64,000 nt of DNA from a virus, in the IMG/VR virus record IMGVR_UViG_3300030099_008323, positions 122,104 through 186,103 of that record. One strand, given 5' to 3'. Below, in pieces: positions 17,378 to 54,346 of this stretch. The position numbers and the translations under genes were made by a program. The notes beneath the pieces are model-generated. The model made no database searches and was not told the DNA's origin. It saw nothing but the letters and a program-made list of their open reading frames with translations. How positions within the stretch are numbered: the stretch's first letter is position 1; every line of letters starts with the position of its first letter.

Positions 17378-17870
17378 GACTTCTTACAGACCCATATTGT
17401 GGAATTTCAATACAATAATCAGATAAATTTATAGCTTCCTCGGTTAAACCTACTCCCTCTTCTCCAAACATCATTAAAGGTGGTTTTTTTAAAGATAGCC
17501 AATTAAATTTATCTAATGTATGGACTTTAAGATTAGATACGTTGTTCTCGATCGCAATTATAGTATAATTATTTTTCAGCTCTAAAAGTTGAGATAAATT
17601 ACGTTCAAGATGTGTAAGGCAAATATAATGGTGTGTGCCCACTGTGCCGCGTCGGTCATAACGCTTCTTGCCCACATAAAACACCTCTCTAGCGCCAAAA
17701 GCATTTGCATTGCGAATGAGAGTACTAATATTAAAATCTCCTTGCCAATGTTCCATACATACTGCGAAGGGTTTAGAGTTTTTTTGAAGGTCTTTTTTAA
17801 TCGATTCCGTAGGCCAGTCTTTATATTTATCAACAACATTTCTAGTCCACATGCTCCAATAGTCAGACAT
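17232..17870 (-). CDS. SpoU-type RNA 2'-O-methyltransferase
   Basis: 212 residues from the ATG of MSDYW, which overlaps the stop of the upstream gene by 8 nt. SPOUT motifs: NISTLIRNANAFG (motif 1), MMFGEEGVGLTE (motif 2) and SLNVGTSSGIVMYDYVRA (motif 3, knot and SAM site). Target may be a tRNA or rRNA ribose; given the phage tRNA nearby, a tRNA is plausible. The last 30 residues, past the knot, have no recognisable role. Confidence 0.9.
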   Translation of the reverse strand: MSDYWSMWTRNVVDKYKDWPTESIKKDLQKNSKPFAVCMEHWQGDFNISTLIRNANAFGAREVFYVGKKRYDRRGTVGTHHYICLTHLERNLSQLLELKNNYTIIAIENNVSNLKVHTLDKFNWLSLKKPPLMMFGEEGVGLTEEAINLSDYCIEIPQYGSVRSLNVGTSSGIVMYDYVRALKNSKAASVLQTEKYDENESAQSESYQLILL

Positions 17871-18186
17871 TATCAGCGCCAATAATTATTATATCATCAG
17901 TATTTAAATTTGCAAATAAATTATGTTGTTTATTTTCTATAGCGACAATCGCGTCTTCAATACTATTGTGTTGACCGCAACTTTCATTTGGGTATGATAT
18001 AGCATTATATTTTATCGATAATTTATTTTCAGCAATCATATATAAATTTTTACAATTGTTTTTTTTTATGTCACTGCATGTTTTATTTCCCTTGACTTCA
18101 ATAAAAATATGTCCTAAACATATACCGTCTCTCCAGACATATTTTTTTGATGAGAGAAAATTATCTTTTTTTAAAAAATATTTCAT
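17863..18186 (-). CDS. Hypothetical protein
   Basis: 107 residues, no recognised family. Small alpha/beta protein with segments CLGHIFIEVKGNK and NTDDIIIIGADNV. Its start overlaps the preceding gene's stop by one base (TAATG) and its end overlaps the methyltransferase start, so it lies in a coupled three-gene unit. Five cysteines are spread through the middle. Confidence 0.55.
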   Translation of the reverse strand: MKYFLKKDNFLSSKKYVWRDGICLGHIFIEVKGNKTCSDIKKNNCKNLYMIAENKLSIKYNAISYPNESCGQHNSIEDAIVAIENKQHNLFANLNTDDIIIIGADNV

Positions 18187-18389
18187 TAGTAATTTTCTTG
18201 AATTTCAGTTATTTTTGGGTAACTAGTTTTATATTTGATGGTAATAAAACCTTTAATTTTTGAAGGCTTGGTCGCCTCAATGTGAATTATCTGCAGGTTT
18301 CTACAAAGACAACAATCGCATGCATTATGGCTACCATAATTGCTAGCAATTAACTTTGTATTGCACTCCTCACATTCAATTATAGTCAA
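18186..18389 (-). CDS. Small zinc-finger-like protein
   Basis: 67 residues from a TTG start preceded by GGAG at 7 nt. The first half has a four-Cys knuckle (CEEC, then CDCCLC) likely to bind zinc; the rest is beta-rich. No ATG is available at the front. First gene after the tRNA in transcription order. Confidence 0.55.
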   Translation of the reverse strand: MTIIECEECNTKLIASNYGSHNACDCCLCRNLQIIHIEATKPSKIKGFITIKYKTSYPKITEIQENY

Positions 18390-18431
18390 TTACTTACTCC
18401 ATCATAATTAACTAGCTACAATTATAATATT

Positions 18432-18508
18432 TGGTTGGCCCAACGGGACTTGAACCCGTGACACCCACTTTATAAGAATGGCGCTCTAACCTACTGAGCT
18501 ATGGGCCA
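18432..18508 (-). tRNA. tRNA-Ile with anticodon UAU, CCA encoded
   Basis: 77 nt folding into a full cloverleaf: acceptor TGGCCCA/TGGGCCA (with U1-A72), D-stem GCTC/GAGC, anticodon stem CCATT/AGTGG with loop CTTATAA, T-stem ACGGG/CCCGT with loop TTCAAGT, then A73 and encoded CCA. The loop places UAU at 34-36, which reads AUA (Ile). Most bacteria read AUA with a lysidine-modified CAU tRNA; a UAU tRNA would serve this AT-rich genome directly. A tRNA search program could confirm the identity. Confidence 0.9.
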
Positions 18509-18512
18509 GTAA

Positions 18513-18683
18513 TCAATCTAGTAGTAGCTGTAATTGCTTATCTTTTTTTTCAGTAAGATTCTGCTCTTCTTGCACTTCCATATACTGAAGGCTAGCTAAA
18601 TGAGGATACTTCTCAAACACTTGCGGAAGGGTCAAATTTTCCGTCATTTGAATTTTTTTTATTTCTTCGCTTACCTTTCCCAT
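18513..18683 (-). CDS. Small hypothetical protein
   Basis: 56 residues from the ATG of MGKVSEEIKK, chosen because an AAGGAG sits 10 nt upstream. Helical and acidic; no family recognised. It overlaps the 3' end of the preceding gene by 71 nt in another frame. It ends 5 bp before the tRNA. Confidence 0.5.
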   Translation of the reverse strand: MGKVSEEIKKIQMTENLTLPQVFEKYPHLASLQYMEVQEEQNLTEKKDKQLQLLLD

Positions 18684-18894
18684 TCTTTTTATTCTCCTTT
18701 TTAATATCAAAATCAGGGTGCAATCTAGTTTTTACTACAAACATATCTTTGGAAGCTAAAAATTTAACTTTAACTTGCATGCCCTTATGTGAATCATTAC
18801 CTTCCCAAATACTTAATAACTTTTTTCTTTTTGTATCAGCCAAATCAAATGATTTATGAAAGCTTTCATTTTTCCATGGTTTATTTACACTCAA
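18613..18894 (-). CDS. Small basic hypothetical protein
   Basis: 93 residues from a TTG codon with AAGGAG 9 nt upstream. The body (residues 1-65) has a beta-rich MQVKVKFLASKDMFVVKTRL segment; the tail is Lys/Arg/Asn-rich and lies in the overlap with the next gene. Function unknown. Confidence 0.5.
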   Translation of the reverse strand: MSVNKPWKNESFHKSFDLADTKRKKLLSIWEGNDSHKGMQVKVKFLASKDMFVVKTRLHPDFDIKKENKKNGKGKRRNKKNSNDGKFDPSASV

Positions 18895-18970
18895 AATATT
18901 CTCCTTGTAATAGTGTTTGCAAACTACAAAGATATTATAATAACAAATATTATATAATTTAAACTAATAT

Positions 18971-19483
18971 TTAATTATTTGAATTATTATATTCTACTCT
19001 AGTGCCTAGCGCTCTATCGACCCAATCAGTGGTTACTCCCCAGTTAGCATCTTGGTTCTTGCCCATGTGATGATCATAGTGCCATGGTAAGTGCTGTTTG
19101 CACCAAGCTGGATCTAAATGAGCTTTTTTATGTATTATATAATATTTTATTGCACAATATATTAAAGTAATGTAAAATAAAGGAGTAACTAGTATTAAAG
19201 GTAAGTGAAAAATACCTAATACTATCAAACCTATTATTTCTCCTCTAGCAGCTGGATCAAATAAACCTTTACTATAATCTGGATCGTAGTTATTGTTTTT
19301 ACGAGAGCTTCGATGATGACCATGCCAATGTGAAGCCCATCTACTTTTTTTATTTTTTCCTAAACCATGTAATACATACTTATGCAAAACCCACTCTAAT
19401 ATATTGGAATATATAATTCCAAGCGGGATGCATAAAAGATGCAATGCTGCTAGCAAGGTCACCCCATAGATTGGTACCTCCAA
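18971..19483 (-). CDS. Fatty acid hydroxylase/sterol desaturase superfamily protein
   Basis: 170 residues. Integral membrane di-iron protein with the histidine boxes HKYVLH, HWHGHH, HKKAH and HYDHH, and hydrophobic segments at about 5-30 and 85-115. It should hydroxylate a membrane lipid or carotenoid-like substrate using O2. Rare in phages. Together with the Mpo1-like protein near 8.5 kb it suggests remodelling of host or virion lipids. Short for the family (often 200-300 residues) but all four boxes are present. Confidence 0.87.
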   Translation of the reverse strand: MEVPIYGVTLLAALHLLCIPLGIIYSNILEWVLHKYVLHGLGKNKKSRWASHWHGHHRSSRKNNNYDPDYSKGLFDPAARGEIIGLIVLGIFHLPLILVTPLFYITLIYCAIKYYIIHKKAHLDPAWCKQHLPWHYDHHMGKNQDANWGVTTDWVDRALGTRVEYNNSNN

Positions 19484-19813: not shown

Positions 19814-19960
19814 TCATTTGTGTTGGATGGCTTTAAGCTCTTTCTTTTCCTTGCTTGTTAAACTCTTCTTTGCTTTAAGTTCTTTTTGCCTAGCTTTCTG
19901 AGTTTTTGTCAACTCACCTTCATTAACAAAATTTCTAAAGTTTTCAAATAATTTTTTCAT
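19814..19960 (-). CDS. 48-residue tagged basic protein (KLFENF tag)
   Basis: Found by reading the gap; too short for most gene callers. It begins MKKLFENFRNFVNEG, the same tag as four larger proteins here, followed only by a Lys-rich helix (KTQKARQKELKAKK). Essentially a tag plus a basic peptide, comparable in kind to phage T4 internal proteins that are packed with DNA. One base separates it from the upstream tagged gene, and AAGGAG lies upstream. Confidence 0.7.
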   Translation of the reverse strand: MKKLFENFRNFVNEGELTKTQKARQKELKAKKSLTSKEKKELKAIQHK

Positions 19961-19961
19961 T

Positions 19962-20456
19962 TTAGTTCTCCTTGAACCATTCTGGTTTTATTCCTTGTAA
20001 AATATGTTTCTCATACTCTTCTTTGGATTTCTTATCGTCAATCTCGCCTTTAACTAGCTTTTGCACAAAACCTAAAGTAATTGCATTAGCCACTATATCT
20101 GCACACCTGGCAGTTACTTCGTTTTTAAGTTGGTCTACAATAATACTTTCACTAGCTTCTGCTATGGGCTGCATTTTATCCTCCGGAACATCGATGATCA
20201 TAGTTGAGTATACATAATCACGATGTGGCTTAGGACAGCAGTGCTCGATCGATTCATCTCTTACATATGTTTTTGTAAATTTAGATATCTTATCATTCCA
20301 TAAAAGCATATTGCTAGTTACGTCATCAGGCTCGCCATATTTGCTGATTAATTCTTCAGAGTACTTTTTAGCATCGTCATGTTCCCAATTTTTTAAAACA
20401 TCAGATGCTTTTTCTTCATTTATAAATCTTCTAAAATTTTCAAATAGTTTTTTCAT
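19962..20456 (-). CDS. Tagged protein (KLFENF tag), function unknown
   Basis: 164 residues beginning MKKLFENFRRFINEE. Behind the tag is a globular, mildly acidic domain with CCPKPHRDYVYSTMIIDVP in the middle; I do not recognise it. FINE|E at residues 11-14 fits the hydrophobic-x-Glu cleavage rule of T4-type head proteases. Starts on the stop codon of the previous gene (TAATG). Confidence 0.68.
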   Translation of the reverse strand: MKKLFENFRRFINEEKASDVLKNWEHDDAKKYSEELISKYGEPDDVTSNMLLWNDKISKFTKTYVRDESIEHCCPKPHRDYVYSTMIIDVPEDKMQPIAEASESIIVDQLKNEVTARCADIVANAITLGFVQKLVKGEIDDKKSKEEYEKHILQGIKPEWFKEN

Positions 20457-20929
20457 TAGCAGTTACAATTCCATTTTCTTAAAGCTTTATTAATTCTACT
20501 ATTAGGATCTCTTTTTCCTTTTGCTCCAGTTCTTTTCTTTTTCATTCCGCACATTCTAGAACAAAAAGATTTTCTTCTTTTTGCAGCTTTACCGCCCTTT
20601 TTAAGCTTGCTAGGTTTTTTAGTAACTGCAGTTTTTAATTTTGATCCTGGGTTAGCTTTTCTATAACGTTTAACTCCTTTAGCGGTTAAACCACCAGATT
20701 TTGATTTGTCGCCACTTTTAACAGAAAATTTCTTAGGCATTTTACCTTTACGTTTTTTCTTTTTTTCCTCTAGCTCAACTTCTTCTTTTTGCAAAAACTC
20801 GCTACACCCAACCTTTTCACGAGGATCTTCTAGAAGCTCTTGCAACAAATCTTCATCTAATTGTTCTTCTAGAACATTTTGTATTTCTTCTTCAATAATT
20901 TGTTTTAGTTTTGATTTTATAATATTCAT
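20456..20929 (-). CDS. Tagged basic protein with phage GLTAKG domain
   Basis: 157 residues. A variant tag MNIIKSKLKQIIEEEI leads to NVLEE at residue 22, an acidic linker, then about 75 very basic residues starting SGGLTAKGVKRYRKANPG and ending RKSFCSRMCGM ... RKWNC. That C-terminal domain recurs in phages (I recall it as DUF6321, not checked). Cys and basic residues suggest DNA binding. Overlaps the gene on each side by 4 nt or 1 nt. Confidence 0.72.
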   Translation of the reverse strand: MNIIKSKLKQIIEEEIQNVLEEQLDEDLLQELLEDPREKVGCSEFLQKEEVELEEKKKKRKGKMPKKFSVKSGDKSKSGGLTAKGVKRYRKANPGSKLKTAVTKKPSKLKKGGKAAKRRKSFCSRMCGMKKKRTGAKGKRDPNSRINKALRKWNCNC

Positions 20930-21144
20930 TTCTTTTTTGATAAATCCTGAGTTTTTGCTTTAAGAATATTTGATTTAACAATAAATCTTAATATTTTTTT
21001 TAATTTCTTATCTTTAAGATCTGGGTCTTTAATAGATTTTTTTAAATAATTCAAATCTTTTTTTGAAAGACCATGGCCTTCACTTAAGACGTTAGCTAGC
21101 TCTTCTTGAATAATTGATTTTAAATCTAATTTGTTAATTTTCAT
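20926..21144 (-). CDS. Small tagged protein (KITK tag)
   Basis: 72 residues: tag MKINKLDLKSIIQEELANVLSE (quoted in two parts elsewhere as residues 1-22), then a short Lys-rich helical peptide KKDLNYLKKSIKDPDLKDKK. VLSE|G at residue 22 fits the proposed cleavage site. Nothing else in it is recognisable; a packaged basic peptide is the simplest reading. Confidence 0.65.
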   Translation of the reverse strand: MKINKLDLKSIIQEELANVLSEGHGLSKKDLNYLKKSIKDPDLKDKKLKKILRFIVKSNILKAKTQDLSKKK

Positions 21145-21148
21145 TAGC

Positions 21149-21445
21149 TTATCCCTTTGTTAAGCCTACTTGTAATTCATGAGCCATTTCAGATGCTATA
21201 GATTTAAGATCAAAAGTAAGATAGCTATGCGCGCTGGTTGGCTGCATTTGCGGCATTACACCGGCCTCTTTTAAATCTTCAATCATTTGACCAAGATATT
21301 TGTTAACAACACTTACATATATTTGGCTACTATCAGGCCTCTTCGCGTCCATGGCCTTATTGACATCACCAATATCAATCTCTTGAACAACACTTTCCAG
21401 CTCTTCTTTAACAATTTGTCTTAATTGTGATTTTGTAATTTTCAT
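21149..21445 (-). CDS. Small tagged protein (KITK tag)
   Basis: 98 residues. Tag MKITKSQLRQIVKEELES with VVQE|I at 20-22; the remaining 75 residues form a small helical protein (VNKYLGQMIEDLKEAGVMP). Starts 4 nt from the next gene and has AAGGAG upstream in a 25-nt gap. No family recognised. Confidence 0.65.
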   Translation of the reverse strand: MKITKSQLRQIVKEELESVVQEIDIGDVNKAMDAKRPDSSQIYVSVVNKYLGQMIEDLKEAGVMPQMQPTSAHSYLTFDLKSIASEMAHELQVGLTKG

Positions 21446-21470
21446 TATAATTATTCTCCTTTTATTTCTA

Positions 21471-21716
21471 TCAACGCAGTCTATTAATTTGAATATTTAA
21501 ATTTTGCAAAGCTTCAACAGCAGCTGCAAGACTAGGTCGTAATGGTGTCATTGGATCACTTGGATTTTGGTCTAACATGTCAAGCATGTTGCCTAAATAA
21601 TCTGACATGCCACTAATTTTTTGAACCTCCTCAGGACTAAAAGGCCCGCCTTGATTAACGACTTCCGCCAGCTCTTCTTTGATAATTTGTTTTAATTGTG
21701 ATTTTGTAATTTTCAT
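21471..21716 (-). CDS. Small tagged protein (KITK tag)
   Basis: 81 residues. Tag MKITKSQLKQIIKEELAE, but position 22 is Gln (VVNQ), so the proposed cleavage site is missing here. The body is a short helical hairpin (GMSDYLGNMLDMLDQ, then AVEALQNLNIQINRL). DNA of the tag is almost identical to that of the two genes upstream. Confidence 0.65.
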   Translation of the reverse strand: MKITKSQLKQIIKEELAEVVNQGGPFSPEEVQKISGMSDYLGNMLDMLDQNPSDPMTPLRPSLAAAVEALQNLNIQINRLR

Positions 21717-21719
21717 TAA

Positions 21720-22079
21720 TCAGTCTCCATATTTTTGACGATCACGTTGCAATTGAGCATCCATTTCTTCTCTATCTCTCATATTATCAGCAAATTTAAG
21801 ATCTGCAATATTTTCAGCTGCATCCTCTAAATCTGAATCTACTAATAAGTAGTCTCTCATCTTATTAAGATTGTTTGCCGCAACAGCCATTTTGTTTGTC
21901 CACCAGGTTGGAAGATGGCCATCCATTTGCTCTAAAGCTTGGAGCATTTGGCCGGCATCTTCAATGATAGTTTTCATTGCACGACGAGCTGAAGATGCGT
22001 CTTCGTGACCGTCTTCATTGAGAGATGCCTCTAATTCTTCTTTAATAATTTGTTTTAATTGTGATTTTGTAATTTTCAT
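21720..22079 (-). CDS. Small tagged protein (KITK tag)
   Basis: 119 residues. Tag MKITKSQLKQIIKEELEA with SLNE|D at residue 22, then an all-helical acidic body (MKTIIEDAGQMLQALEQMDG, then NLNKMRDYLLVDSDLEDA). It resembles the neighbouring 81-residue protein in its helical layout, which suggests duplication. Starts on the stop codon of the previous gene. Confidence 0.65.
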   Translation of the reverse strand: MKITKSQLKQIIKEELEASLNEDGHEDASSARRAMKTIIEDAGQMLQALEQMDGHLPTWWTNKMAVAANNLNKMRDYLLVDSDLEDAAENIADLKFADNMRDREEMDAQLQRDRQKYGD

Positions 22080-22678
22080 TATTTATCGATCCTACCAACC
22101 GCTCTATTATACTTGCGGTCAAAAGACGTCTGACGCGCTACCACGACTCGTGCTTCTTTAGCGTCCTTTTCACCACGGTGACCGACCCCACCTAGAATTG
22201 TATAAGACTTATCTATCGCATCGTCTAGCCACTTGCCGTGGCTGAGCCCGAGGAGGCCTCCTGTTCCTCCTGGTTGGGCTTTACTATAGATAACGGCATA
22301 GATACTATTAAGAAGCTCGTTTTTTGATGCTTGTACAAATTTATATCTATGGCCTAGGCTGCTTTGCATATTATCCCAAGGTTTATAAAATGTATCTACA
22401 AGCTGTTCGGCGCTTTGCTCCAGGCCCTGCGGTGTGACTCTACGGCTTGATAATTCACCCGCAAGCTTCTTCCATTCACGATTAAAATACGGTATTAACG
22501 CGCGCTGTTTATAGTCAGCCAGCTTCGCATTACTAATTATTTTTTGTTCTTCAGCTTTTCTATCCGGTGCTGCAGAAGCGTCAGCTGCCCTGGCGGCCGC
22601 CAACGCTGAATTTTCATTCAAAACACTTTCCAGTTCTTCTTTAATAATTTGTTTTAATTTTGATTTTGTGATTTTCAT
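22079..22678 (-). CDS. Tagged protein (KITK tag), function unknown
   Basis: 199 residues. Tag MKITKSKLKQIIKEELES with VLNE|N at residue 22, a low-complexity Ala/Asp linker, then a helical domain with many charged residues (ADYKQRALIPYFNREWKKL). The 3' half has visibly higher GC than its neighbours. No family recognised. Overlaps the 371-residue gene by 4 nt. Confidence 0.65.
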   Translation of the reverse strand: MKITKSKLKQIIKEELESVLNENSALAAARAADASAAPDRKAEEQKIISNAKLADYKQRALIPYFNREWKKLAGELSSRRVTPQGLEQSAEQLVDTFYKPWDNMQSSLGHRYKFVQASKNELLNSIYAVIYSKAQPGGTGGLLGLSHGKWLDDAIDKSYTILGGVGHRGEKDAKEARVVVARQTSFDRKYNRAVGRIDK

Positions 22679-23790
22679 GCTGTCTTCCTCTTTTTTTTCT
22701 TTTTTCTAGGAGAATCAGTCGCAACATATGTAGGCTTAGCAGCACCAGATTTTTGCTGTTGATTCTTATCTTTTCTTCTTTTTCTCGCTGCTGAAGCACG
22801 TCTTTCTGCAGGTGTCATACTAGCTCTTTTTGCAGAGGATACACACTTTGGTACACCTTCTCCTTCTTTATCACTAGCACAAGAATCGCCTGTAACAACA
22901 TTTACCCATCCTGGTTTTCCATCTTTTGATTTTGAACCCTTGAACCAGTGATATAGGCTAGATTTTTTCTTTTTGGATTTTTTTTTCTTTTTAGGTTTTT
23001 TCTTTTCTTCAAGTTCAGCTTCTTCAAGACCTTGAATATCTACTTCGAGTATTTCATCCTCTAGTACTTCTTTTTCTTCAGCTTTAACACAATTTCTGTA
23101 CGTCTTACCGTACATTTTTTTAGTTTTTCTTTTGCTATCTGTTTTGTATCCTTTTTGACACCTGCCACCTTTTTCATTTAAAAAAGACTCGATTTTTTCC
23201 ATTACAATATCTTCTTTAGATAAAGACTCGTTTTTCTTTTTCTTGCCGCCCGTGCCCCAGTTTTTAGCGCCTTTTTTGCGACACTTCACAAGAGCGCCAG
23301 ATGCATATGCAGAAGGCCAAACTCTATATCTAGCTTTAACTTTGTAATAACAAGCATCTCTTTTGCCTTTCTTTTTCTTTTTAGCTCTTTTCTTTTTTGT
23401 TCTTTTTTTAGACCTTTTTCTTTTTTCATCAAGCATCTCTTCTTGTGCTTCAAAAAATATTTCAAGGCCTTCAGCAATATCTTCTTTTGTAATGTTTATT
23501 TCTTCATCATCGCCTGCAATAATATCTTTGTCTCTATGGACACCAATATCTTCGCTGCCCTCAATAAATTCATCGATGAAAGCATCTAAATCAAAATCAT
23601 CTGGAAGCTCAACACCTCTCTCATCTAAAAAAGGTTTAAGTTCATCAGGAGTTTTTAACATTTTGCGACCAATAGCGCCGCCTTCTTTGCCGATTAAATC
23701 TCTGGCTGCAGCTTCAACATCTTTTTCTGTTGCTTGTTTCTTCTCTTCTTCATTAACAAATTTTCGAAAATTTTCAAATAGTTTTTTCAT
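22675..23790 (-). CDS. Tagged multi-domain basic protein
   Basis: 371 residues with an N-terminal tag MKKLFENFRKFVNEE, an acidic segment, and three small Cys/Lys-rich units: one around YRVWPSAYASGALVKC, one around GRCQKGYKTDSKRKTKK, and a C-terminal YHWFKGSKSKDGKPGWVNV. Units of these types recur in phages and some giant viruses (I recall DUF5872; not checked). They are separated by acidic linkers containing SFLNE|K-like sites, so the protein may be cut into several DNA-binding peptides. Translation is coupled to the HAD gene by ATGA. Confidence 0.72.
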   Translation of the reverse strand: MKKLFENFRKFVNEEEKKQATEKDVEAAARDLIGKEGGAIGRKMLKTPDELKPFLDERGVELPDDFDLDAFIDEFIEGSEDIGVHRDKDIIAGDDEEINITKEDIAEGLEIFFEAQEEMLDEKRKRSKKRTKKKRAKKKKKGKRDACYYKVKARYRVWPSAYASGALVKCRKKGAKNWGTGGKKKKNESLSKEDIVMEKIESFLNEKGGRCQKGYKTDSKRKTKKMYGKTYRNCVKAEEKEVLEDEILEVDIQGLEEAELEEKKKPKKKKKSKKKKSSLYHWFKGSKSKDGKPGWVNVVTGDSCASDKEGEGVPKCVSSAKRASMTPAERRASAARKRRKDKNQQQKSGAAKPTYVATDSPRKKKKKRKTA

Positions 23791-24374
23791 AAGCTTAAAA
23801 GTTTTAATTGTTCAATTGTTTGGGCTGTGTTTTTATGATGAATTATTAGACCACCTTTTTTAGCCCACGGCCTAATCTTACTATAAGTATCATCAATAAG
23901 TAGTTTATTATCGCCAGAATATATAAATTTATCCTCTTCTATTATAATATTTATATCAGGCCCTAATTTTTTTTCAATCCAAGCCTTTTTTCCTGTTATA
24001 CACCCTTTTCCTGGCATTGGGGCAGTAAGTATAATTATTTGTGGCGTCGCGTTTTTTATGTATCTCCATAATTTTTGGCCGTCATTTGTCCATTTTAAGT
24101 CAGCCCAAAAATTATGATCGTCACTAACTCTTTTGTACATGTAGTTTCTAACTTCAATTATTTTTTTTTGTGGATCTCGCGTTAGATCAGCAATATCAAT
24201 TTGTGCTCTTCTACCTAGGCTTAATAGTTTTTTACGTAATTTTTCTATATCAACTTTTAGGTTACTAGGCACCCTAGAATTATCTAGAAGATCAGAGTTT
24301 ATATAATCAACAGCTCCTTTTTCAAAGTTAACTAAAACGCCGTCCATGTCGCAAAATATTTGTATTTTATTCAT
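23787..24374 (-). CDS. HAD-superfamily phosphatase (5'-nucleotidase-like)
   Basis: 195 residues. Catalytic DxD in FCDMDGVLVNF at residues 7-17, a motif-II Thr/Ser candidate in IIILTAPMPG, and the distal acidic motif LLIDDTYSKIRPW. Layout matches the small deoxyribonucleotidase branch of HAD enzymes (NT5C type), which hydrolyse dNMPs. First gene of the leftward tagged-protein operon; SD AAAGGA before the ATG. Divergent from the tail fibre with a 117-bp AT-rich promoter region between. Confidence 0.75.
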   Translation of the reverse strand: MNKIQIFCDMDGVLVNFEKGAVDYINSDLLDNSRVPSNLKVDIEKLRKKLLSLGRRAQIDIADLTRDPQKKIIEVRNYMYKRVSDDHNFWADLKWTNDGQKLWRYIKNATPQIIILTAPMPGKGCITGKKAWIEKKLGPDINIIIEEDKFIYSGDNKLLIDDTYSKIRPWAKKGGLIIHHKNTAQTIEQLKLLSL

Positions 24375-36606: not shown

Positions 36607-37158
36607 TCAACCTCTCAATCTTATATATATTTTTTTATTTTCATCGCTTTCAGTACCAAGAGTCATTTGAATTGATTTTAAATATGGCTTAGATAAGCTG
36701 CCTTTAGAATTAAAATCATTTATTTGTTGCATTGAAAAAAAACCATATTCTGTGTGTTCATCGCTAAGCTTTACCTCGCCACCACCAAATGCAGCCTGAA
36801 AAAATACTTTGTTGCCGTGGTTGTAATGAAGCGCTTTTGGTTCAAACACATTAAGTCCTGTTTCTTCGAACACCTCTCTTTCCAAAGCAGACAAAATATT
36901 CTCGTCGCTTTTCATATGTCCACCAGGCAAATCCCAGCCCATATCATTTTTTAATAAAAGTACTTTTCCATTTCTGTGCATAACAACTTTAACTGATTTT
37001 GATAGATCCTCTCCGGTTGCTTGTTGTTTGTCTGCTGGATATATATTTTTAACATATCCTAAATTATTTCCAATTGTTCCAGCTAGGCTCGGGCGATCTC
37101 CACCAAAATATGTGAGTTCATTAATATAGCCCCTCCAACTTTCAAATAATTTTTTCAT
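36607..37158 (-). CDS. Tagged Nudix hydrolase (KLFE-W tag)
   Basis: 183 residues. N-terminal tag MKKLFESWRGYINEL, then a Nudix fold with the box GHMKSDENILSALEREVFEE (followed by TGL), matching Gx5Ex7REUxEExGU. Nudix enzymes hydrolyse NDP-X compounds (ADP-ribose, NADH, ADP-sugars, capped RNA). The shared tag suggests that this enzyme is packaged and delivered with the DNA, where it could act on host nucleotides or defence signals at once after entry. That delivery is inference. Confidence 0.85.
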   Translation of the reverse strand: MKKLFESWRGYINELTYFGGDRPSLAGTIGNNLGYVKNIYPADKQQATGEDLSKSVKVVMHRNGKVLLLKNDMGWDLPGGHMKSDENILSALEREVFEETGLNVFEPKALHYNHGNKVFFQAAFGGGEVKLSDEHTEYGFFSMQQINDFNSKGSLSKPYLKSIQMTLGTESDENKKIYIRLRG

Positions 37159-37161
37159 ATG

Positions 37162-38472
37162 CTATTTTATCTCTTCAGGTGGCCCGGTGAAGGTGTAGGA
37201 TGAATTCTCAAGTTTTCTAATAGCCGGTATTACTTCATCGTATAGCTCTTTTACTCTTTTTCTAGCATTCTTATATCCTATTTTTGCAGATTCATAGTTT
37301 TTTTCCCAGTTTTTCTTCTCATTTTTATCAGTGCTAGGGTCATCGACATCAGGCTTAGCAATATTTTTTTTGTCACTAATGTATTTTTTTACATTTTCAT
37401 CAATGCCATATAATCTTACATGGAAGTGGTGAAAATGATTTTTTTCATGCCTAACTTTTGTCCCAAATATTTTTCTACTCAGCCACCTTTTTGATCTTTT
37501 TCCTGCTTTGATATCCTGCTTAAGCTTTTGTTTAATAGCAGCAATAATTTTTTCATCTATAAATATATACTCAACTATAAATTCTGTGCCTGCGCCCGGA
37601 CCATACAAGCAATGCGCTATGAAATTTATACATGCATCAATATCAATTTTTGATACGTCCCTACCTAGATTATCAAAATTCCAAGACTCTTTAGAGCCTC
37701 TTCTTTTATCTGAAACACTCATTTTTACTTTTCTTGTCGGTACGTATCCCTTTAAAGGCACATCACCTGTTATTTCTTTTCCTTTGAATTCTTGTTCCGA
37801 TAAAGTTGGTACTGACATATCAACGTCTAGACCCCATCTATGACTGCCATGGCCGTAGATCTTTGTACCTAGCTTATATCTACCGATATCTAGTTTGGAT
37901 ATGTCTTCAACAAACCATGGCGCATATTTTGCAACAGATGGGTTTACTTCAAGACTATTTAAAAACCTTATCATAGTTGGCCATCCCCATCTTCTATTGT
38001 TAGCTTCTTTCACTTCAACGACACTATTACCATTAAATTTTTTCAGGCCGGCCTTTGAGAATTCCTTTGGTGTTGGTAATGATGGTGGCGAGGTAAAGCT
38101 TGATAATTTTGCTGCAGCAAATTCTAGATACCTTAAATCGTCCTCCATCAACAGATATTTGTCTTGTACAACTCTTGCTATATCACTAGGATCAAGAAAT
38201 CCACGTATGTAGTACGATAATTCAACTGATTTCTTAACAAACTCCTCTCCTAGGCCTTTATCTTTTGCTTGTGATAAATACCACTTCCTAGCACGAACAT
38301 TACTCATAGCCCGGGCAACTTCCATAACCGCCTCAACATAATGATCTTCTGTGGGTTTATCTGGTGGTAGCTTTCCTAGTTTTGGATGATTTATTCCCTT
38401 AAGAGTTTTTGCTAGTGAAGAGTTATTTTGCTCTCCTATATAGGCGCGCCAATTTTCAAATAGTTTTTGCAT
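37162..38472 (-). CDS. Tagged MepA-like murein endopeptidase (M74/LAS)
   Basis: 436 residues. Tag MQKLFENWRAYIGEQ, helical middle, then an LAS-type zinc peptidase core: GHGSHRWGLDVDM (HxxGxDxD) and NHFHHFHVRLYG. MepA cuts D-Ala-mDAP cross-links. As a tagged protein it could be a virion enzyme that opens the wall during entry rather than a lysis enzyme, although it lies next to the endolysin. C-terminal 75 residues are a charged helix. Confidence 0.8.
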   Translation of the reverse strand: MQKLFENWRAYIGEQNNSSLAKTLKGINHPKLGKLPPDKPTEDHYVEAVMEVARAMSNVRARKWYLSQAKDKGLGEEFVKKSVELSYYIRGFLDPSDIARVVQDKYLLMEDDLRYLEFAAAKLSSFTSPPSLPTPKEFSKAGLKKFNGNSVVEVKEANNRRWGWPTMIRFLNSLEVNPSVAKYAPWFVEDISKLDIGRYKLGTKIYGHGSHRWGLDVDMSVPTLSEQEFKGKEITGDVPLKGYVPTRKVKMSVSDKRRGSKESWNFDNLGRDVSKIDIDACINFIAHCLYGPGAGTEFIVEYIFIDEKIIAAIKQKLKQDIKAGKRSKRWLSRKIFGTKVRHEKNHFHHFHVRLYGIDENVKKYISDKKNIAKPDVDDPSTDKNEKKNWEKNYESAKIGYKNARKRVKELYDEVIPAIRKLENSSYTFTGPPEEIK

Positions 38473-42636: not shown

Positions 42637-45600
42637 TTATCTAATCCATCTCTTACTTTTTAGAAAAGCTAGGAACCTCTGTGCTCTCATTCTGTCATCT
42701 TTACTAAATCTAGATTTTAATCCGGATAAAATTTTAAAATTATGAATCCAAGCCTGATTAATATTTTCTGGATTAAAATTTAATTTATTTAATTTTTTTG
42801 ATTTTGGTAGTTCACTAGTGGCTATACTAGGTGTGGAGATATCGTCATTGTCTACAGCTTGGTCAGAAACCACATCCTCATCTGTAATGAGAATATCTTT
42901 AAACTCTTCATATCCTTCTCTTTTTTTAACATTTTTAGGACTATACATATTTTGCCACAATTTATATACATCTGGAGTAAGTGCAGTTCTTTCTAACAAA
43001 TCTTCAATATGGCGGTCGTGGTAGTAAGAGTCTTTATACACTTTTTCAGGGCTCCAATTTTTTCTTAATTCTAATTCATAAATTAAGCTCTCTAGAGGCA
43101 AAAGACGCTTGAAAGCCCCTGGTTTATCAGAAAGATGTGTTGATGCCGCGGCAGAAACATTTAGTGTGGCATTATATTTTAAAATAGCTCCTGTTTCTAA
43201 TTCTTTGGGTTTATCAGGCCAGTACCCAGTTTTCTGATACACTGTATATTTTATTAATCTGTTTATTTCTTCGGCTGTTAGACGTAATATTGCAGCGCCA
43301 TTGTCAACTTTTTCAAATCCTTTTTTAAGCGTTTCTCTCTGTAAGCCCTCAGTAATTGCCATAAATTTAGTAGCTGTATGACAGAATTCCCAGTAGTATG
43401 CCCTCTCATAAAATTTGTGTTTACTGCTTTTTTTCTTTGCTTTAAGCATGTCTAGTGCTCTCGTGACGAGGCCGGCTTCAGGATAAAATATTAAAGCCAG
43501 CGGAGCAGAAATTGGATGCATTAGTGGCTTGTTAGCTTTGATAAACTCTTCAACATTTTTTGTTTTATCTGAGCTTTCATATTCTTGCAAGACGTCAAGC
43601 CAAGTTTTATTTGTAAAGCCCATCGCACCTATTTCCTTACCTCTCTCTATAGCATCTTTATTTAAATACTCAGATATTGGCTTCCCATCTGGAGACAGAT
43701 TCAAAGATAAATTTGAATTTACAAATTTTTCTATTGAACTCTTAGTCATAGTTCTTGATGTGATGCTTGTTATTTTTGTAGCAGCCTCCACAGATCTTTT
43801 TAATATTTCGTGAAACTCACGTGGTTCATATTTATCTCTTTCAAAACATGCCGCAAGGCCTTGATAGAGCTTCTCAAAATTTTCTGCAAAAATATCGATA
43901 TTATTTTCTATCTGAGAAAAGTCTTTTTGCATTTTTCGCTCCGGCCCAAAATAATTGCCAGATTCATAATCATGCCATCCATTTTCTTCATATTTTCCAT
44001 TTTTATAATCTTGTATAATACGATTATATATCCTAATATCCTCTGTTTTGGTTGGGGATAGGCCATAGCATTGTGGCTCAGCCGGCCCCAGATCGAATGA
44101 TTGAGCCATTAACCAACTTTTTCTCATTTCACATGCAAAAGAAAAAGTACCAGGCTGCAAATATGATGGGCATCTACATAGATAGCCTATAACACCAATT
44201 GGATCAAACATCATGAAGAACGCTGTAATACCCCGGAAAGCCGGGGTTTGTATTACGTTTCCTTGCTCTAATTCATTAAGGTCGGAAAGATAAAAGAACG
44301 GGGAGAGTATTTTAAGTACTCTTTGTGCGCCTTTCATTAAGGTGCCTGTTAGCGCTAGTAAATCATCAGTTACCCTTAAAAATAATTTTCTATCACTAAT
44401 TGTTTCCATCTGCACAAATATCTTCTTTGCAGCTTCTTTTGCTTGCTTGAACTCTGCATCACTTGCAAACACATCATTAGCATTAAGCTCATCTAAAAAC
44501 TTCATGTATTTTTTTTCTGCACCACGAACATTGAGGGTCTTACCAGATTTTTTCATCTGTCTAAACATCGCCTCTAATGTAAGATTCGGATCGATATTCA
44601 TTCCTTTGGTAGCTGGTATCATATCTAAAACATCAGCGCCAGGTAAATATCTAAGATATTTCGCTTTGCGAGGGCCCGTAAACGTCTCTAGGGCTGATTT
44701 TTTTACTTTAACTTTATCGGTTTGATATTTTTTAGCTAACTTTCTGAGATCTTCAACTTGTTTGCTTAAAAATGTATTATTTACTCCTGCTTTTTTTCTA
44801 TCATATGGTCCATTAGAAAGCAAGGCGCCTATACCAACACGTGGAAAAAGTGGCATTTTTTGATCACTAGTGCCGCCTAACTGTGCTAGCATTTCTTTAA
44901 TTACATCAAGTTCAGCGCCACTTACATCAGTAAATATCAGTCGACCAGATTCAAGTTGGTCTAGTAGTGTTCTATACCTCCAAACATCACCTGTTCTTCT
45001 GCTACTGAAAAAATCAAAAACTTGTCCACGCGCCCCTGCTCCAGCAATATTATCTGTTGCTTCAGCTAGCCATCGACCTCTTCCATCTGGCTTAACTTTG
45101 AAATCAACACCCCATATATAATTTGTTGTTTCATGAACAAAATCGTATGTTGTTGATATGTCAATATTCATTCTATCAGGAAGAGAGGTATTCAAAATAT
45201 CAGACAGCCTCACAGATAGGCCAGAGTTTTCTGGCTTCCATGATCTTCTTAGCGCGCCAAGTTTATTAATTTCATTATTAATTTGAGCTGCAGCACTAGC
45301 CCAAGCGCCGTTCGCATTGCTAGCTAGCTTATAGTTTACAGACTTACCTTTTATGTCAGATATCGTTCCATCGTTTTGAAATTTTATAGCTGATTTTTCA
45401 TTCTCAGGCAGGGCGTCTATGAGATTATCGATCCAGCTGCTATCAAATCTAGGATCAACTGTGTGGCGTATGATTGGTCTTTCAGAATTTCTAATTCTTC
45501 TTTGAGCCGCTAAAAGTGCATCATCACCTGCAGAAGTTGCATTACGTACTTCTCTTTCTAGAGAAATGAGAAATTTACCGCCACTATTCACCGCCTCTGG

Positions 45601-46365
45601 CGATCGGCTAGTCATATTTTCTAAAGCTTGCACGCCATGGCCAGTATAAGCAAAAGAGCCAATAACTTTAGGCTCCACTCCTTTTCTTTGAAATATTGTA
45701 ACTGGACTTTTTTTATCGCTGTATTTAACTACAGTTGCGCGCGCAACAATATTGTCATTGGGAGGCCCGGTAATATTAACTATTTTTAAAATTTTTGCTT
45801 GATTCTTGACTACTGAATCTAATTCTTTCATATTAACAAATAGCTGAAAAAATCTATCAATGCCATCAATCGCTCTTCTTCCTGCTGCATCAGCTGAGCT
45901 AGCTATTTCTTGATACTTAGGACTATTTTTAAGTACTTTGTCGTAAGTTTGATAAAATTCATATAATGGCCATTTTCCAGCAGCAACTTCATATATTACA
46001 ATATCCAATATAGAATCGTAATTTGCACCAACAATATCATTAAGCGCACCTAAGATAAATTGATAAATTGCAGTCTCTTTTAAAGCTTCTAAGGCTCTTA
46101 TGGCATCTTTCCCACCTAAATCGTATATATACTGCAGCAGCCAATCTCTAGCTTTTTTACCTGTTTGAACTAAACCACCTATAGGCGTCTCAACATCTGC
46201 GGTAGCTGGCTCATTTACCGGCACTTCAGCTAGCTTTTCTCGTGCTCTAGCCATTTCTCCTGCTAGGCCTGGATCCGTTGGTCGCGGCGATCGCCCCTTG
46301 AATTCAATAATTTTTTTAGCCTCATGGAGGATGAAGCTTTCAAGATCTGCTTTATTTAATTTCAT
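42637..46365 (-). CDS. 1242-residue tagged protein, function unknown
   Basis: Begins MKLNKADLESFILHEAKKII, a divergent KITK-type tag. The rest is mostly helical with no motif I recognise: no Walker, HExxH, polymerase or protease signature was found. A weakly hydrophobic stretch lies near residues 715-735 (ITAFFMMFDPIGVIGYLC). Size plus tag suggest a large internal or ejected virion protein. A structure prediction would be the deciding step. Confidence 0.7.
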   Translation of the reverse strand: MKLNKADLESFILHEAKKIIEFKGRSPRPTDPGLAGEMARAREKLAEVPVNEPATADVETPIGGLVQTGKKARDWLLQYIYDLGGKDAIRALEALKETAIYQFILGALNDIVGANYDSILDIVIYEVAAGKWPLYEFYQTYDKVLKNSPKYQEIASSADAAGRRAIDGIDRFFQLFVNMKELDSVVKNQAKILKIVNITGPPNDNIVARATVVKYSDKKSPVTIFQRKGVEPKVIGSFAYTGHGVQALENMTSRSPEAVNSGGKFLISLEREVRNATSAGDDALLAAQRRIRNSERPIIRHTVDPRFDSSWIDNLIDALPENEKSAIKFQNDGTISDIKGKSVNYKLASNANGAWASAAAQINNEINKLGALRRSWKPENSGLSVRLSDILNTSLPDRMNIDISTTYDFVHETTNYIWGVDFKVKPDGRGRWLAEATDNIAGAGARGQVFDFFSSRRTGDVWRYRTLLDQLESGRLIFTDVSGAELDVIKEMLAQLGGTSDQKMPLFPRVGIGALLSNGPYDRKKAGVNNTFLSKQVEDLRKLAKKYQTDKVKVKKSALETFTGPRKAKYLRYLPGADVLDMIPATKGMNIDPNLTLEAMFRQMKKSGKTLNVRGAEKKYMKFLDELNANDVFASDAEFKQAKEAAKKIFVQMETISDRKLFLRVTDDLLALTGTLMKGAQRVLKILSPFFYLSDLNELEQGNVIQTPAFRGITAFFMMFDPIGVIGYLCRCPSYLQPGTFSFACEMRKSWLMAQSFDLGPAEPQCYGLSPTKTEDIRIYNRIIQDYKNGKYEENGWHDYESGNYFGPERKMQKDFSQIENNIDIFAENFEKLYQGLAACFERDKYEPREFHEILKRSVEAATKITSITSRTMTKSSIEKFVNSNLSLNLSPDGKPISEYLNKDAIERGKEIGAMGFTNKTWLDVLQEYESSDKTKNVEEFIKANKPLMHPISAPLALIFYPEAGLVTRALDMLKAKKKSSKHKFYERAYYWEFCHTATKFMAITEGLQRETLKKGFEKVDNGAAILRLTAEEINRLIKYTVYQKTGYWPDKPKELETGAILKYNATLNVSAAASTHLSDKPGAFKRLLPLESLIYELELRKNWSPEKVYKDSYYHDRHIEDLLERTALTPDVYKLWQNMYSPKNVKKREGYEEFKDILITDEDVVSDQAVDNDDISTPSIATSELPKSKKLNKLNFNPENINQAWIHNFKILSGLKSRFSKDDRMRAQRFLAFLKSKRWIR

Positions 46366-46425: not shown

Positions 46426-46938
46426 CTAAAGATCGTCAGGCTCACCATAATCGTCAGGTAAACCACCTGGATTAACGGGATCGATCTGTCTTAGTTGCAT
46501 AGCCTTAGCTAAACCGGTTTCTGCCAAGCTGGAAGGCTGTCTGTCTTCAGGAACCAGCTTCTCTATGGCTACGAGCTGCTCACTTAAATCTCTAGATTTA
46601 GCATATTTATTGTAGAGTTTGCCTAGCTCAGTTAGAGCTTCTTCCCATCTTTCGTTTTTCGAGTACTGAGATAAAATATTCTTATTTCTAGTCCAGTAAT
46701 TTTTAACAGTGAACATCATATCGCGATAAGCTTGCTGAGGGTTGTCGACAACATCCTTTTCCTCATATTTTGTACCAAGCTGATCTCTTACAAAATGCTC
46801 TCTTACTTCTAAAAGCTTTCTAACCAGCTGCCCGCCGCTCTTCATCTCAGGATTCATGCCTAGATCTTCTTGCTCAGCAAAAAAATTCTGAAGCTCTTCT
46901 TTAATAATCTGCTGTAATCTTTGTTTTGTAATTTTCAT
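46426..46938 (-). CDS. Tagged protein (KITK tag), function unknown
   Basis: 170 residues. Tag MKITKQRLQQIIKEELQN with FFAE|Q at residue 22. The body is helical (QAYRDMMFTVKNYWTRNK) with a Pro/Gly-rich end. Lies upstream of the 1242-residue gene, separated by 60 bp containing a CGCG-CTG-CGCG hairpin that might partly terminate transcription. Confidence 0.65.
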   Translation of the reverse strand: MKITKQRLQQIIKEELQNFFAEQEDLGMNPEMKSGGQLVRKLLEVREHFVRDQLGTKYEEKDVVDNPQQAYRDMMFTVKNYWTRNKNILSQYSKNERWEEALTELGKLYNKYAKSRDLSEQLVAIEKLVPEDRQPSSLAETGLAKAMQLRQIDPVNPGGLPDDYGEPDDL

Positions 46939-46939
46939 C

Positions 46940-47236
46940 TTAATTTCCCTTCTGATCTTTTGCCCAGATCTGTGGACATCGTTTTTTTGATTTGCTCATT
47001 AGTTGCGCCTTAACTATATCGTCTTTAGCGCCGGCCCTCAATTCATTGCGAAAGCTTAAGCCACGTTTAGTATCTTCACATGCTAGCTTTACAGCCTCAT
47101 CCGGGGCGTCATCTGCTTTATCATCAAAATCATCTGGAAAGTCTGGTATCTGAATATCACCAGGCCTTACTCTCTCAAGGACGTTTGCTATTTCCTCTTT
47201 AATAATCTGTTTAAGTTTATCTTTCGTAATTTTCAT
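46940..47236 (-). CDS. Small tagged protein (KITK tag)
   Basis: 98 residues. Tag MKITKDKLKQIIKEEIAN followed by VLER (Glu one place earlier than in the other tags), an acidic linker, then a basic helical end with two Cys residues (CEDTKRG and KKRCPQIW). One base from the next tagged gene. First gene of that unit, divergent from the plus-strand Cys-rich gene. Confidence 0.62.
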   Translation of the reverse strand: MKITKDKLKQIIKEEIANVLERVRPGDIQIPDFPDDFDDKADDAPDEAVKLACEDTKRGLSFRNELRAGAKDDIVKAQLMSKSKKRCPQIWAKDQKGN

Positions 47237-47964: not shown

Positions 47965-48954
47965 TTATTCCTCAAGCTTTGTTAAGTCGCGACTAAGATC
48001 TTGGAACGCTGTTTTTTTAAGTACTTTGCTCATTTGTTGTTCAAGCTTGCCTAATTCGATCAAACGAAAATCTATATCGCGAATTTTCTTTTCAATATCA
48101 TCTTGATCTGGATCTAAGCTGCCAGGTATTAATTGAGCGATAAGATCTTTTTTTTCAGCATTTAATTTGGCCTTTTCACTTTTAACACGCCGCTCGCGGG
48201 AAGATAGCGATCGCATCTTTGTCAAATTAGGATCTTCGCGGTTTGATGGCATCACAGGGTCGACCGGATTAAGAACGGGCGTCTTAGACTGTTTTGGAGG
48301 CATTTCAACTGGTGGCGTTGTACGATACTGCAGTTTCATTTGATCTAGCTTATTTTGCTCTAGCAGCGCTGCAAACGTATTTGATTGAAGCGCTTCTTTT
48401 AAAATTGACTTAAGCTGTGCTTTTGTGATTTTAACGCTTTTATGTCCTTCATTTATATCTTCGTAATCATCGTCGAACGCATCGATCTCTGCAGGAGATA
48501 ATCCAGTCGCCAGGCCACTCGGCCGAGTGCGCATCATTTTGAGGTGAAACTCAACGTCGCGACCTATCTCAGGCCTTTGTTCTATGACAGCATCCAGCAT
48601 CGCTTGCGCGTTTTGATCACGACCGCTCCTTGCCGCATGAAATAACCTTTCCAGTGCTCTATTATCAAATATCTTAGGCGGACCTTCTAAAGCTTTAGTT
48701 GCTAGCGCTTGATATGGCGTTATATCGCCCACGCTGTGTATTTGCTTTTTTGGTGAATCGATTTTTGATCGATCAGTCACAGCGCTGGTTTGCGCAACTC
48801 CCCTTCTTGGCTCGCCATACCGATTGGCTCTACGCGGCCCATCTAGATCTTCAATATCCAGCTTGGGCTCACCATATTCTGCTGGGTTTCTTTTGTAAGC
48901 CTCTAGAATGATCTCTTTCACTAGTTTTTTAAGTTTATTATTATCAATTTTCAT
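47965..48954 (-). CDS. Protein with N-terminal and internal KITK tags
   Basis: 329 residues from the ATG of MKIDNNKLKKLVKEIILEA. After about 165 residues of polar, Pro-rich sequence a second complete tag appears in frame (VKITKAQLKSILKEAL), where the expected start Met is Val encoded by GTT, so it cannot act as a start. A charged helical domain follows (RERRVKSEKAKLNAEKKDL). Looks like two tagged genes fused in frame. Confidence 0.68.
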   Translation of the reverse strand: MKIDNNKLKKLVKEIILEAYKRNPAEYGEPKLDIEDLDGPRRANRYGEPRRGVAQTSAVTDRSKIDSPKKQIHSVGDITPYQALATKALEGPPKIFDNRALERLFHAARSGRDQNAQAMLDAVIEQRPEIGRDVEFHLKMMRTRPSGLATGLSPAEIDAFDDDYEDINEGHKSVKITKAQLKSILKEALQSNTFAALLEQNKLDQMKLQYRTTPPVEMPPKQSKTPVLNPVDPVMPSNREDPNLTKMRSLSSRERRVKSEKAKLNAEKKDLIAQLIPGSLDPDQDDIEKKIRDIDFRLIELGKLEQQMSKVLKKTAFQDLSRDLTKLEE

Positions 48955-49103
48955 ATTGCTGTTCCTTAAACGTACCAATTGCTGGTTTAAGCTTGACTAT
49001 TGTAAATAGTATCGTTATAATGATTAAATCTCAAAATTAACTTGGCGGTATTTTTTTGCTTTAGACTTGGCTTTAAGTGCCTATATTGTATGTAAGTAAA
49101 TTA

Positions 49104-52932: not shown

Positions 52933-53127
52933 TTAAGTTAACTCAATATTGAGTGTGGAGACTGCCGTCGTCTTGCTTGGGAAAGCAACAACGCAGCCCT
53001 TAACGATATCATTCTCAATGACAACGCCTAGTTCGCGCAACCACGGCATTTCAACAGCTAGCGCATCAAGCTGTCGACCACGTTGTTTGAAGCGTACTAA
53101 GTCACCGATATTAAACTGCTTTTTCAT
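52933..53127 (-). CDS. GDLV-family small protein
   Basis: 64 residues: FNIGDLVRFKQRG near the start, ELGVVIENDIVKGCVVAF in the middle, STLNIEL at the end. Same strand order as the array members but with a longer first loop and no SESR ending. AGAGG ribosome site. Confidence 0.68.
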   Translation of the reverse strand: MKKQFNIGDLVRFKQRGRQLDALAVEMPWLRELGVVIENDIVKGCVVAFPSKTTAVSTLNIELT

Positions 53128-53136
53128 TGTTTACCT

Positions 53137-53301
53137 CTAGCTGCTAGCAGGGCGGCATGCCTCAACAAAGCGAGACACGTCAAAGCGTGGGTTCTCATCG
53201 CGTAGAGCGTAAGCGAAGTCCATAGCAACCGACTCGCGAGTGCGGCGGTCTTCAATGTTTTTGACGATATTGGCAATCATTTTAAAGTGCTTGCGGGTCA
53301 T
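53137..53301 (-). CDS. 54-residue conserved phage-type protein
   Basis: Not in longer-ORF lists. ATG with AAGGAG upstream; begins MTRKHFKMIANIVKNI and ends NPRFDVSRFVEACR. This pattern recurs in phages of several hosts (from memory) but has no known function. Helical, basic N-terminus. Confidence 0.65.
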   Translation of the reverse strand: MTRKHFKMIANIVKNIEDRRTRESVAMDFAYALRDENPRFDVSRFVEACRPASS

Positions 53302-53330
53302 GTCCTTTCTCCTTTGTTGGGGACATTTAA

Positions 53331-53358
53331 ATAATAAGAACGGTTTGAGAGGGGTAAA
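53331..53358 (-). promoter_or_regulatory. Early-type promoter (P-53.3)
   Basis: TTTACC, 16 bp, TATTAT, with AAACCGTTCT before the -10. Predicted start 23 nt before the 54-residue gene. Confidence 0.8.
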
Positions 53359-53571
53359 CTAAAAAGTTACCTTTTCCCATCCAGGCAAGAGGCTAGCACG
53401 TTCAACCGTGACCAACTGACCATAGCGTAGCTTACACTTGCCCTCGGCGTCAGCAGCGCTAAGTCCCCAGAATGTCTCATCTTTTGACTGCTCCTCGTAA
53501 ACAGGAGGACGGTGGCGCTTTGCGACATTCTTGAGGTAGGTCATTGTGACGCGGTAAGGTTTCTCTTTCAT
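53359..53571 (-). CDS. Small hypothetical protein
   Basis: 70 residues from the ATG of MKEKPYRVTMTYLKN with AAGGAG 8 nt upstream. Basic N-terminus, then ETFWGLSAADAEGKCKLRYG. Small alpha/beta fold similar in layout to the 59-residue protein at 52.7 kb (surface-loop then amphipathic helix). Function unknown. Confidence 0.6.
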   Translation of the reverse strand: MKEKPYRVTMTYLKNVAKRHRPPVYEEQSKDETFWGLSAADAEGKCKLRYGQLVTVERASLLPGWEKVTF

Positions 53572-53600
53572 TGGTGGCTCCTTCTGCCGGGTACACATAA

Positions 53601-53628
53601 ATAATAAGCACCGTTTAGGTGGAGTAAA
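53601..53628 (-). promoter_or_regulatory. Early-type promoter (P-53.6)
   Basis: TTTACT, 16 bp, TATTAT with GGTGCT before the -10. The -35 lies inside the last codons of the preceding gene, so coding and promoter sequence overlap. Confidence 0.78.
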
Positions 53629-53827
53629 GGCCTGGAGTAACTTTTTTCAAATAACTCTTTGTAAATCTTCGTACCTTGCCATCGAAGGTCTTGATATCAT
53701 AAAGAAAATAGTTATCCCGTCCAGGCTCCGCTGTTATTTGTAGGCGCTGCTCGACAATCAAACCAAGAGAGCCTTTTGGCACTCCGATAGAACCATGCTT
53801 AAACTCAACTAAATCACCGATATTCAC
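53615..53827 (-). CDS. GDLV-family small protein
   Basis: 70 residues from a GTG (MNIGDLVEFKHG). LGLIVEQRL and KVRRFTKSYLKKVTP follow the family strand order, but the LEVIS end is replaced. Its first 14 nt overlap the end of the previous family member. Confidence 0.7.
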   Translation of the reverse strand: MNIGDLVEFKHGSIGVPKGSLGLIVEQRLQITAEPGRDNYFLYDIKTFDGKVRRFTKSYLKKVTPGLYST

Positions 53828-53996
53828 TGATAACCTCTATGTCACATCCAGCAGCATGCACGTCACGTGCATGGTCCAGCATTTTCACACGCCACTCGTC
53901 ACCTTTCCAATCGGGACGGTGGTAACTCTTAACTAGCACGCCTAGTTTTGTGCCATAGTGTCTTGTTTTTACCTTAACTAAATCACCGACTTTCAC
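53814..53996 (-). CDS. GDLV-family small protein
   Basis: 60 residues from the GTG in the 14-nt overlap with the previous member. KVGDLVKVK, LGVLVKSYH and CDIEVISEYR. A longer upstream frame exists but lies inside the preceding gene. Confidence 0.72.
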   Translation of the reverse strand: MKVGDLVKVKTRHYGTKLGVLVKSYHRPDWKGDEWRVKMLDHARDVHAAGCDIEVISEYR

Positions 53997-54302: not shown

Positions 54303-54310
54303 ACACATAT

Positions 54311-54338: not shown

Positions 54339-54346
54339 AAACTATC

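Follow-up and report, generated by a model that had tools for sequence, protein, structure and literature searches.

Why should a run of neighbouring genes with unrelated bodies begin with the same residues? In the window analysed here (64,000 nucleotides, G000:C1:122104-186103 of the 186 kb record of an ocean phage), nine successive minus-strand genes at 19814-23790, closely packed or overlapping, all carry one of two N-terminal tags, KITK (MKITKSQLKQIIKEELESVLNE-like) or KLFENF (MKKLFENFRKFVNE-like). The stretches 36607-38472 and 46426-47236 contain further tagged genes, and there are variants at 42637 and 47965. Altogether the window holds 8 KITK and 5 KLFENF genes, and a sixth KLFENF tag (YVSE14) lies beyond it at G000:C1:62297-62695. 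Judged from their sequences, the two N-termini are very probably two families of capsid-targeting propeptides of a marine T4-like phage, working like those of T4. The genes are listed below; a slash marks a candidate cut, with the position of the Glu in brackets.

19814..19960, minus strand: KLFENF-tagged short protein, 48 aa; VNE14/G (19919-19921).
19962..20456, minus strand: KLFENF-tagged protein, 164 aa; INE14/E (20415-20417).
20456..20929, minus strand: KITK-type (MNIIKSKLKQIIEEE) tagged protein, 157 aa; LEE22/Q (20864-20866), reading VLEE.
20926..21144, minus strand: KITK-tagged protein, 72 aa; IQE14/E, and LSE22/G (21079-21081), reading VLSE.
21149..21445, minus strand: KITK-tagged protein, 98 aa; VKE14/E, and VQE22/I (21380-21382), reading VVQE.
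21471..21716, minus strand: KITK-tagged protein, 81 aa; IKE14/E (21675-21677), LAE18/V (21663-21665), and Gln22 (VVNQ).
21720..22079, minus strand: KITK-tagged protein, 119 aa; IKE14/E, and LNE22/D (22014-22016), reading SLNE.
22079..22678, minus strand: KITK-tagged protein, 199 aa; IKE14/E (22637-22639), LNE22/N (22613-22615), reading VLNE.
22675..23790, minus strand: KLFENF-tagged protein, 371 aa; VNE14/E (23749-23751).
36607..37158, minus strand: KLFESW-tagged NUDIX-domain protein; INE14/L (37117-37119).
37162..38472, minus strand: KLFENW-tagged M74 murein endopeptidase-like protein; IGE14/Q (38431-38433).
42637..46365, minus strand: 1242 aa protein, family unknown; tag-like N-terminus MKLNKADLESFILHE15/AKKIIE, tentative.
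46426..46938, minus strand: KITK-tagged protein, 170 aa; IKE14/E, and FAE22/Q (46873-46875), reading FFAE.
46940..47236, minus strand: KITK-tagged protein, 98 aa; IKE14/E, and VLE21/R (47174-47176), in the Glu21 register.
47965..48978, minus strand: 337 aa protein; the ORF list gives it a TTG start, and the tag begins at Met9, MKIDNNKLKKLVKEIILEA.

Near the tagged operon, 18971-19483 encodes a membrane protein with histidine motifs resembling fatty-acid/sterol hydroxylase. A 5'-nucleotidase-like gene adjoins the tagged genes both here (23787-24374) and in the tag-rich region of Flavobacterium phage immuto (L487:9856-10455). The stretch 52933-63463 holds numerous small paralogues that begin MKVGDLV / NIGDLVxFK ... 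GVV, possibly an array of small beta-barrel (KOW/SH3-like) proteins.

The first-pass annotation placed a Glu preceded by hydrophobic-x at residue 22 of six KITK tags, and six of the eight tags read from the sequence do carry it. The Glu that it reported at about 11-14 in the KLFENF tags is also present, although at exactly residue 14 in all five window tags rather than over a range. Its proposal that the tags fit the T4 gp21 rule is borne out by hydrophobic-x-Glu at the tag ends, enriched over shuffles in other contigs. Among 212 KITK tags from these contigs, [LIVMF]xE ends at residues 18-25 in 72.6% (shuffled mean 22%, maximum 33%; downstream control windows 15%), and among 97 KLFENF tags it is found at 13-18 in 92.8% (shuffled 16%, maximum 27%); the tags are paralogues and the shuffles keep their shared ancestry, so these enrichment tests are not independent. 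The KITK DNA pattern left residues 16 onwards free, with Glu14 forced in its first version, and the KLFENF search pattern fixed little beyond residues 1-8. Each pattern has at least 100 loci in viral contigs, where the reversed KITK pattern, used as a control, gave 0 matches. As tblastn queries against cultured phages, the bare tags were too short to score.

Conservation by column is 3.1 bits at Glu14 of the KLFENF tags and then about 1 at residue 15; in the KITK tags it is at background level beyond residue 22. Thirteen KLFENF tags have no Glu14, and in 10 of these the motif has been moved 1-5 residues by insertion (shifted forms include VLNE15, YLAE16, TLNE17, ILNE18 and VLTE19). What is conserved in the KLFENF tags is thus the motif rather than its position. 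The second KITK site also varies (in the 212 tags, hydrophobic-x-Glu at 22 in 31%, 21 in 23%, 18 in 11% and 19 in 5%), with Glu22 the commonest second site across the family but not a fixed position.

KITK tags carry another candidate, absent from the earlier annotation. Ile12-x-Glu14 obeys the same rule and is the most conserved rule-conforming Glu of the tag. Glu14 is found in 8/8 window KITK tags, and 155 further KITK-like tags, collected with a pattern that did not force it, have hydrophobic-x-Glu at 14 in 93% and Glu15 in 72%. The mature ends predicted from Glu22 are therefore not as precise as had been claimed, since Glu14 of every KITK tag fits the rule too and some tags have Glu14 alone. 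The same site bears on the two exceptions, VVNQ (21471) and VLER (46940), described earlier as uncut or cut elsewhere. Plain lack of cutting is unlikely; IKE14 and LAE18 remain as sites in the first, and Glu14 and Glu21 (VLE21/R in the common register) in the second, so neither need be uncut.

The protease that the rule calls for was predicted to lie elsewhere in the genome, and a peptidase S77 was found at G000:C1:53749-54396 by profile search (E 3.9e-32; 108 bits, cut-off 27). The gene matches the PHROG head maturation protease, and its product aligns with T4 gp21 at LGE[LN][DN]HP and G[IV]SSRGLG (the His and Ser motifs). A search for the same site in the capsid protein, also suggested by the annotation, was successful: gp23 of this genome reads ...ENQAAQLLKE59/ASSMAGGD, corresponding to FLTE65/A of T4, and gp23 of the other tag-bearing genomes examined has L-[LVI]-[RKD]-E/[ASQT] (first L or I/V) at the expected site. 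S77 is present in 26/32 large KITK contigs and 15/22 large KLFENF contigs, compared with 6/17 random large contigs, where three of the matches are weak. For contigs of at least 150 kb the figures are 13/14 KITK and 7/7 KLFENF, versus 2/4 random. This association is partly due to both tags belonging to T4-like phages. The profile search detected no S77 in six tag-bearing contigs, four of which also have no portal; in G026, tag-bearing and with no S77 match, the portal is near the contig end. G005 (125 kb), with an atypical tag, has a T4-type portal but no detected S77 or gp23, and is a possible counterexample to the pairing of tag and protease.

T4 provides the closest model. In its capsid-targeting sequence (CTS), residues 4 and 7 serve for targeting, residues 8 and 10 for processing; on its own the CTS brings foreign proteins into the head, after which it is removed, and other CTS-like proteins are said to exist in T4-related phages (PMC9026906). 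The T4 record reads MKTYQEFIAE/A, MAKINELLRE/S and FLTE65/A. As with the CTS of the T4 internal proteins and the gp24 propeptide (cut by gp21, S77), the same short N-terminal tag ending in hydrophobic-x-Glu is found here on unrelated proteins, and both genomes encode the cognate S77 protease and gp23. In contrast to T4, the tags are of two kinds with unrelated sequences, one of 14 and the other of about 22 residues, and many more genes are tagged; the KITK tag has two candidate sites, tags are also internal, and multi-domain cargo has sites between its modules. By eye, the T4 tag MKTYQEFIAE has no convincing likeness to these tags, which are too short for a formal test.

By analogy with T4, the tag, which is short, amphipathic and rich in Lys and Glu, would dock the protein on the prohead core. 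As the head matures, gp21, the S77 protease of the phage itself, would cut after the hydrophobic-x-Glu read in the sequences. In KLFENF tags the cut would fall at Glu14. In KITK tags it would fall at the second site, anywhere in Glu18-24 but mostly at 21 or 22; Glu14 would be an extra site, or the sole one where no second exists. The freed cargo would stay with the DNA and be injected, as T4 internal proteins are, while cargo genes that are strings of modules would yield polyproteins cut apart at the same sites.

The main KITK cut could instead be made after Glu14 and not Glu22, giving a propeptide MKITKSQLKQIIKE of the same length as MKKLFENWRKHLNE, the later hydrophobic-x-Glu being secondary or accidental. 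We consider this rather unlikely, although several observations speak for it. Besides the frequency of Glu14 in the unselected and window tags, its P1' residue is mostly E, A or S, like that of KLFENF tags and gp23, and the YLSNIYKWCP module is mostly found behind tags with Glu14 alone. In L381 and L059, whose tags lack a second site, homology to internal modules starts at IKE14/ELRDY or IDE14/ELRDY, an argument for use of Glu14 where there is no other site. However, cargo homology mostly starts at the second hydrophobic-x-Glu, and the spacer after Glu14 varies in length; the second site is Glu19 or 21 in the SNFGG family and Glu22 or 24 in GxENITPEN. The T4 CTS also has an earlier hydrophobic-x-Glu, yet its processing site is residue 10. 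Finally, both sites may be used. T4 ipIII has both YQE6 and IAE10, and redundant cut sites are described for phiKZ propeptides (PMC9026906), so two sites per KITK tag are not odd.

Cutting after the second KITK site, and at the same motif between modules, is also suggested by exchange of cargo. The same cargo domain can be found after KITK tags, after KLFENF tags or within multi-domain proteins. In 28/28 contexts, hand-listed from modules found by BLAST, the junction carries hydrophobic-x-Glu (GxENITPEN 12/12, xVPHSA 6/6, AELKIPVE 4/4 and SN[FM]GG 6/6). Among 36 contexts of the LHKWFKG module, Glu stands directly ahead of G[ST]LHKWF in nearly all and the strict motif in 25. An automated test on tagged/untagged pairs found hydrophobic-x-Glu at the homology start of both partners in 37%, versus 10-20% at shifted positions; an all-against-all version without selection of tagged proteins was noisy (22% versus 6-12%). 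By eye, the RCQKGYK module follows FLNE206/KGG in the 371 aa window protein (E codon 23173-23175) and LDE/, LEE/ or IEE/ elsewhere. The 337 aa protein at 47965..48978 contains another, complete KITK tag internally, around residues 183-207 (48358-48432), with INE177 before it and LLE after it, and from its sequence looks like two tagged proteins fused.

Junctions of this kind extend to cyanophages. The 371 aa protein has three modules of the long cyanophage T4-GC119 proteins (T4-GC119 / phrog_727 / phrog_3477), and the C-terminal module of the 157 aa protein (20456..20929) is also found in cyanophage multi-domain proteins. In the long proteins the modules LHKWFKGSKSKDGK, KDACYHKVK and AAWTRKAGK often have hydrophobic-x-Glu between them. 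These proteins are without the tags, whereas in this phage the modules are found in two tagged proteins. One module-bearing relative, ORF29 of cyanophage S-SCSM1, is annotated as 'virion protein', and the virion proteins of S-SCSM1 were identified by mass spectrometry (974 peptides; PMC9602691). Candidate mature N-termini following hydrophobic-x-Glu in ORF29 include GTLHK, GKDKK, DCWDGYEK, SVRVPAK and GAAWTK.

It is improbable that the tags are uncut docking helices, binding the core, the tail or a host factor, with the terminal Glu merely capping the helix. The KITK tag is indeed an amphipathic Lys/Glu-rich segment, and Glu is common near helix ends. However, insertions in KLFENF tags shift the motif along, and it marks tag-free junctions within multi-domain proteins, neither of which is predicted by position-specific helix capping. 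It is very improbable that the N-termini are alike just because of recent tandem duplication or recombination and play no part in targeting: six KITK genes are in tandem and several have almost identical DNA over codons 1-15, but the same tags head unrelated proteins, NUDIX and M74 enzymes among them, and occur in at least 100 contigs with diverged DNA, conservation ends at the motif, and the reversed pattern has no matches.

Pfam, PHROG and NCBIfam scans of 145 tagged proteins turned up few domains, among them no embedded peptidase that could release cargo, and the profile search for a common cargo function gave scattered matches alone (amidase, FliG C-terminal, nucleotidyltransferase, DUF6321 and others). 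The recognisable domains, NUDIX and M74 endopeptidase in the window together with amidase and nucleotidyltransferase, fit injection. Single tagged proteins among the 145 match the FliG C-terminal domain, N-acetylmuramoyl-L-alanine amidase and nucleotidyltransferase, and these are possibly injected effectors acting on host motility, wall or RNA.

The tags may derive from prohead proteins. A small core protein encoded beside gp21 in these phages (L002:13370-13768 and L137, L141-L161) begins MKKSELKNIIKECVKEVIFEEG or similar, resembling the KITK tag. Its N-terminus scores 19.0 against the KITK profile, compared with 14.8 for the highest of 250 column shuffles (0/250 reach it). This hints that the KITK tag is a copy of a core-binding segment, but no more than hints at it, because both sequences are short and rich in Lys and Glu. 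KLFENF has a weak likeness to the end of the gp23 propeptide (2/250 shuffles reach the score). Its origin as a copy of the gp23 segment LLEKWERTGLLE was rejected, as the profile comparison picked another segment. A tentative broader reading, which we put at somewhat below even, is that packaging in marine T4-like phages follows a combinatorial code. Swappable tags, derived from core-binding segments of the prohead or mimicking them, would be joined to swappable cargo modules, made singly or as polyproteins that the prohead protease cuts in the head before injection. In this reading KITK would correspond to the core protein beside gp21 and KLFENF to the end of the gp23 propeptide.

Two other systems share parts of this arrangement. 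The prohead proteases of phiKZ and SPN3US also cut after Glu at a short motif, with cargo packaged and ejected and with redundant propeptide sites, but they belong to S80 and the protease here to S77; the SPN3US motif is A-x-E and several of its propeptides exceed 100 residues (PMC5694885). The polyvalent proteins of phages and plasmids are likewise multi-domain, carried into the host and freely shuffled in their domains, although their release is ascribed to embedded peptidase domains (PMC5512222), whereas here the junctions have sites of prohead-protease type. The literature searched, which covered few subscription papers, contains no report of these tag families, their spread or the inter-module sites, and a search for the tag peptides gave no match. 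The CTS and gp21 principle is known, and the two further tag families, in modular and, most likely, partly polyprotein form, are apparently new.

Phage immuto (host LMO8), among the nearest cultured phages by gp23, carries KITK-like tags (102294-102869, 102880-103359 and 113188-113946). It also has a third candidate family, FDLKKFLVENKLTxNSxLLKE (103806-104354 and 117631-118931 in phage coordinates, L487:3806-4354, 17631-18632 and 18632-18931; also L488:1803-2318), with hydrophobic-x-Glu near residue 13 and near 24, a two-site layout like that of KITK. An isolate is thus available for testing the prediction. In uncultured phages most injected internal proteins lack known homologues and are therefore difficult to identify. 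Should the tags be capsid addresses, sequence alone would be enough to list the cargo that widespread marine T4-like phages inject, with a few predicted mature ends for each protein, and the large 'hypothetical' proteins of cyanophages would be suggested to be protease-cut polyproteins.
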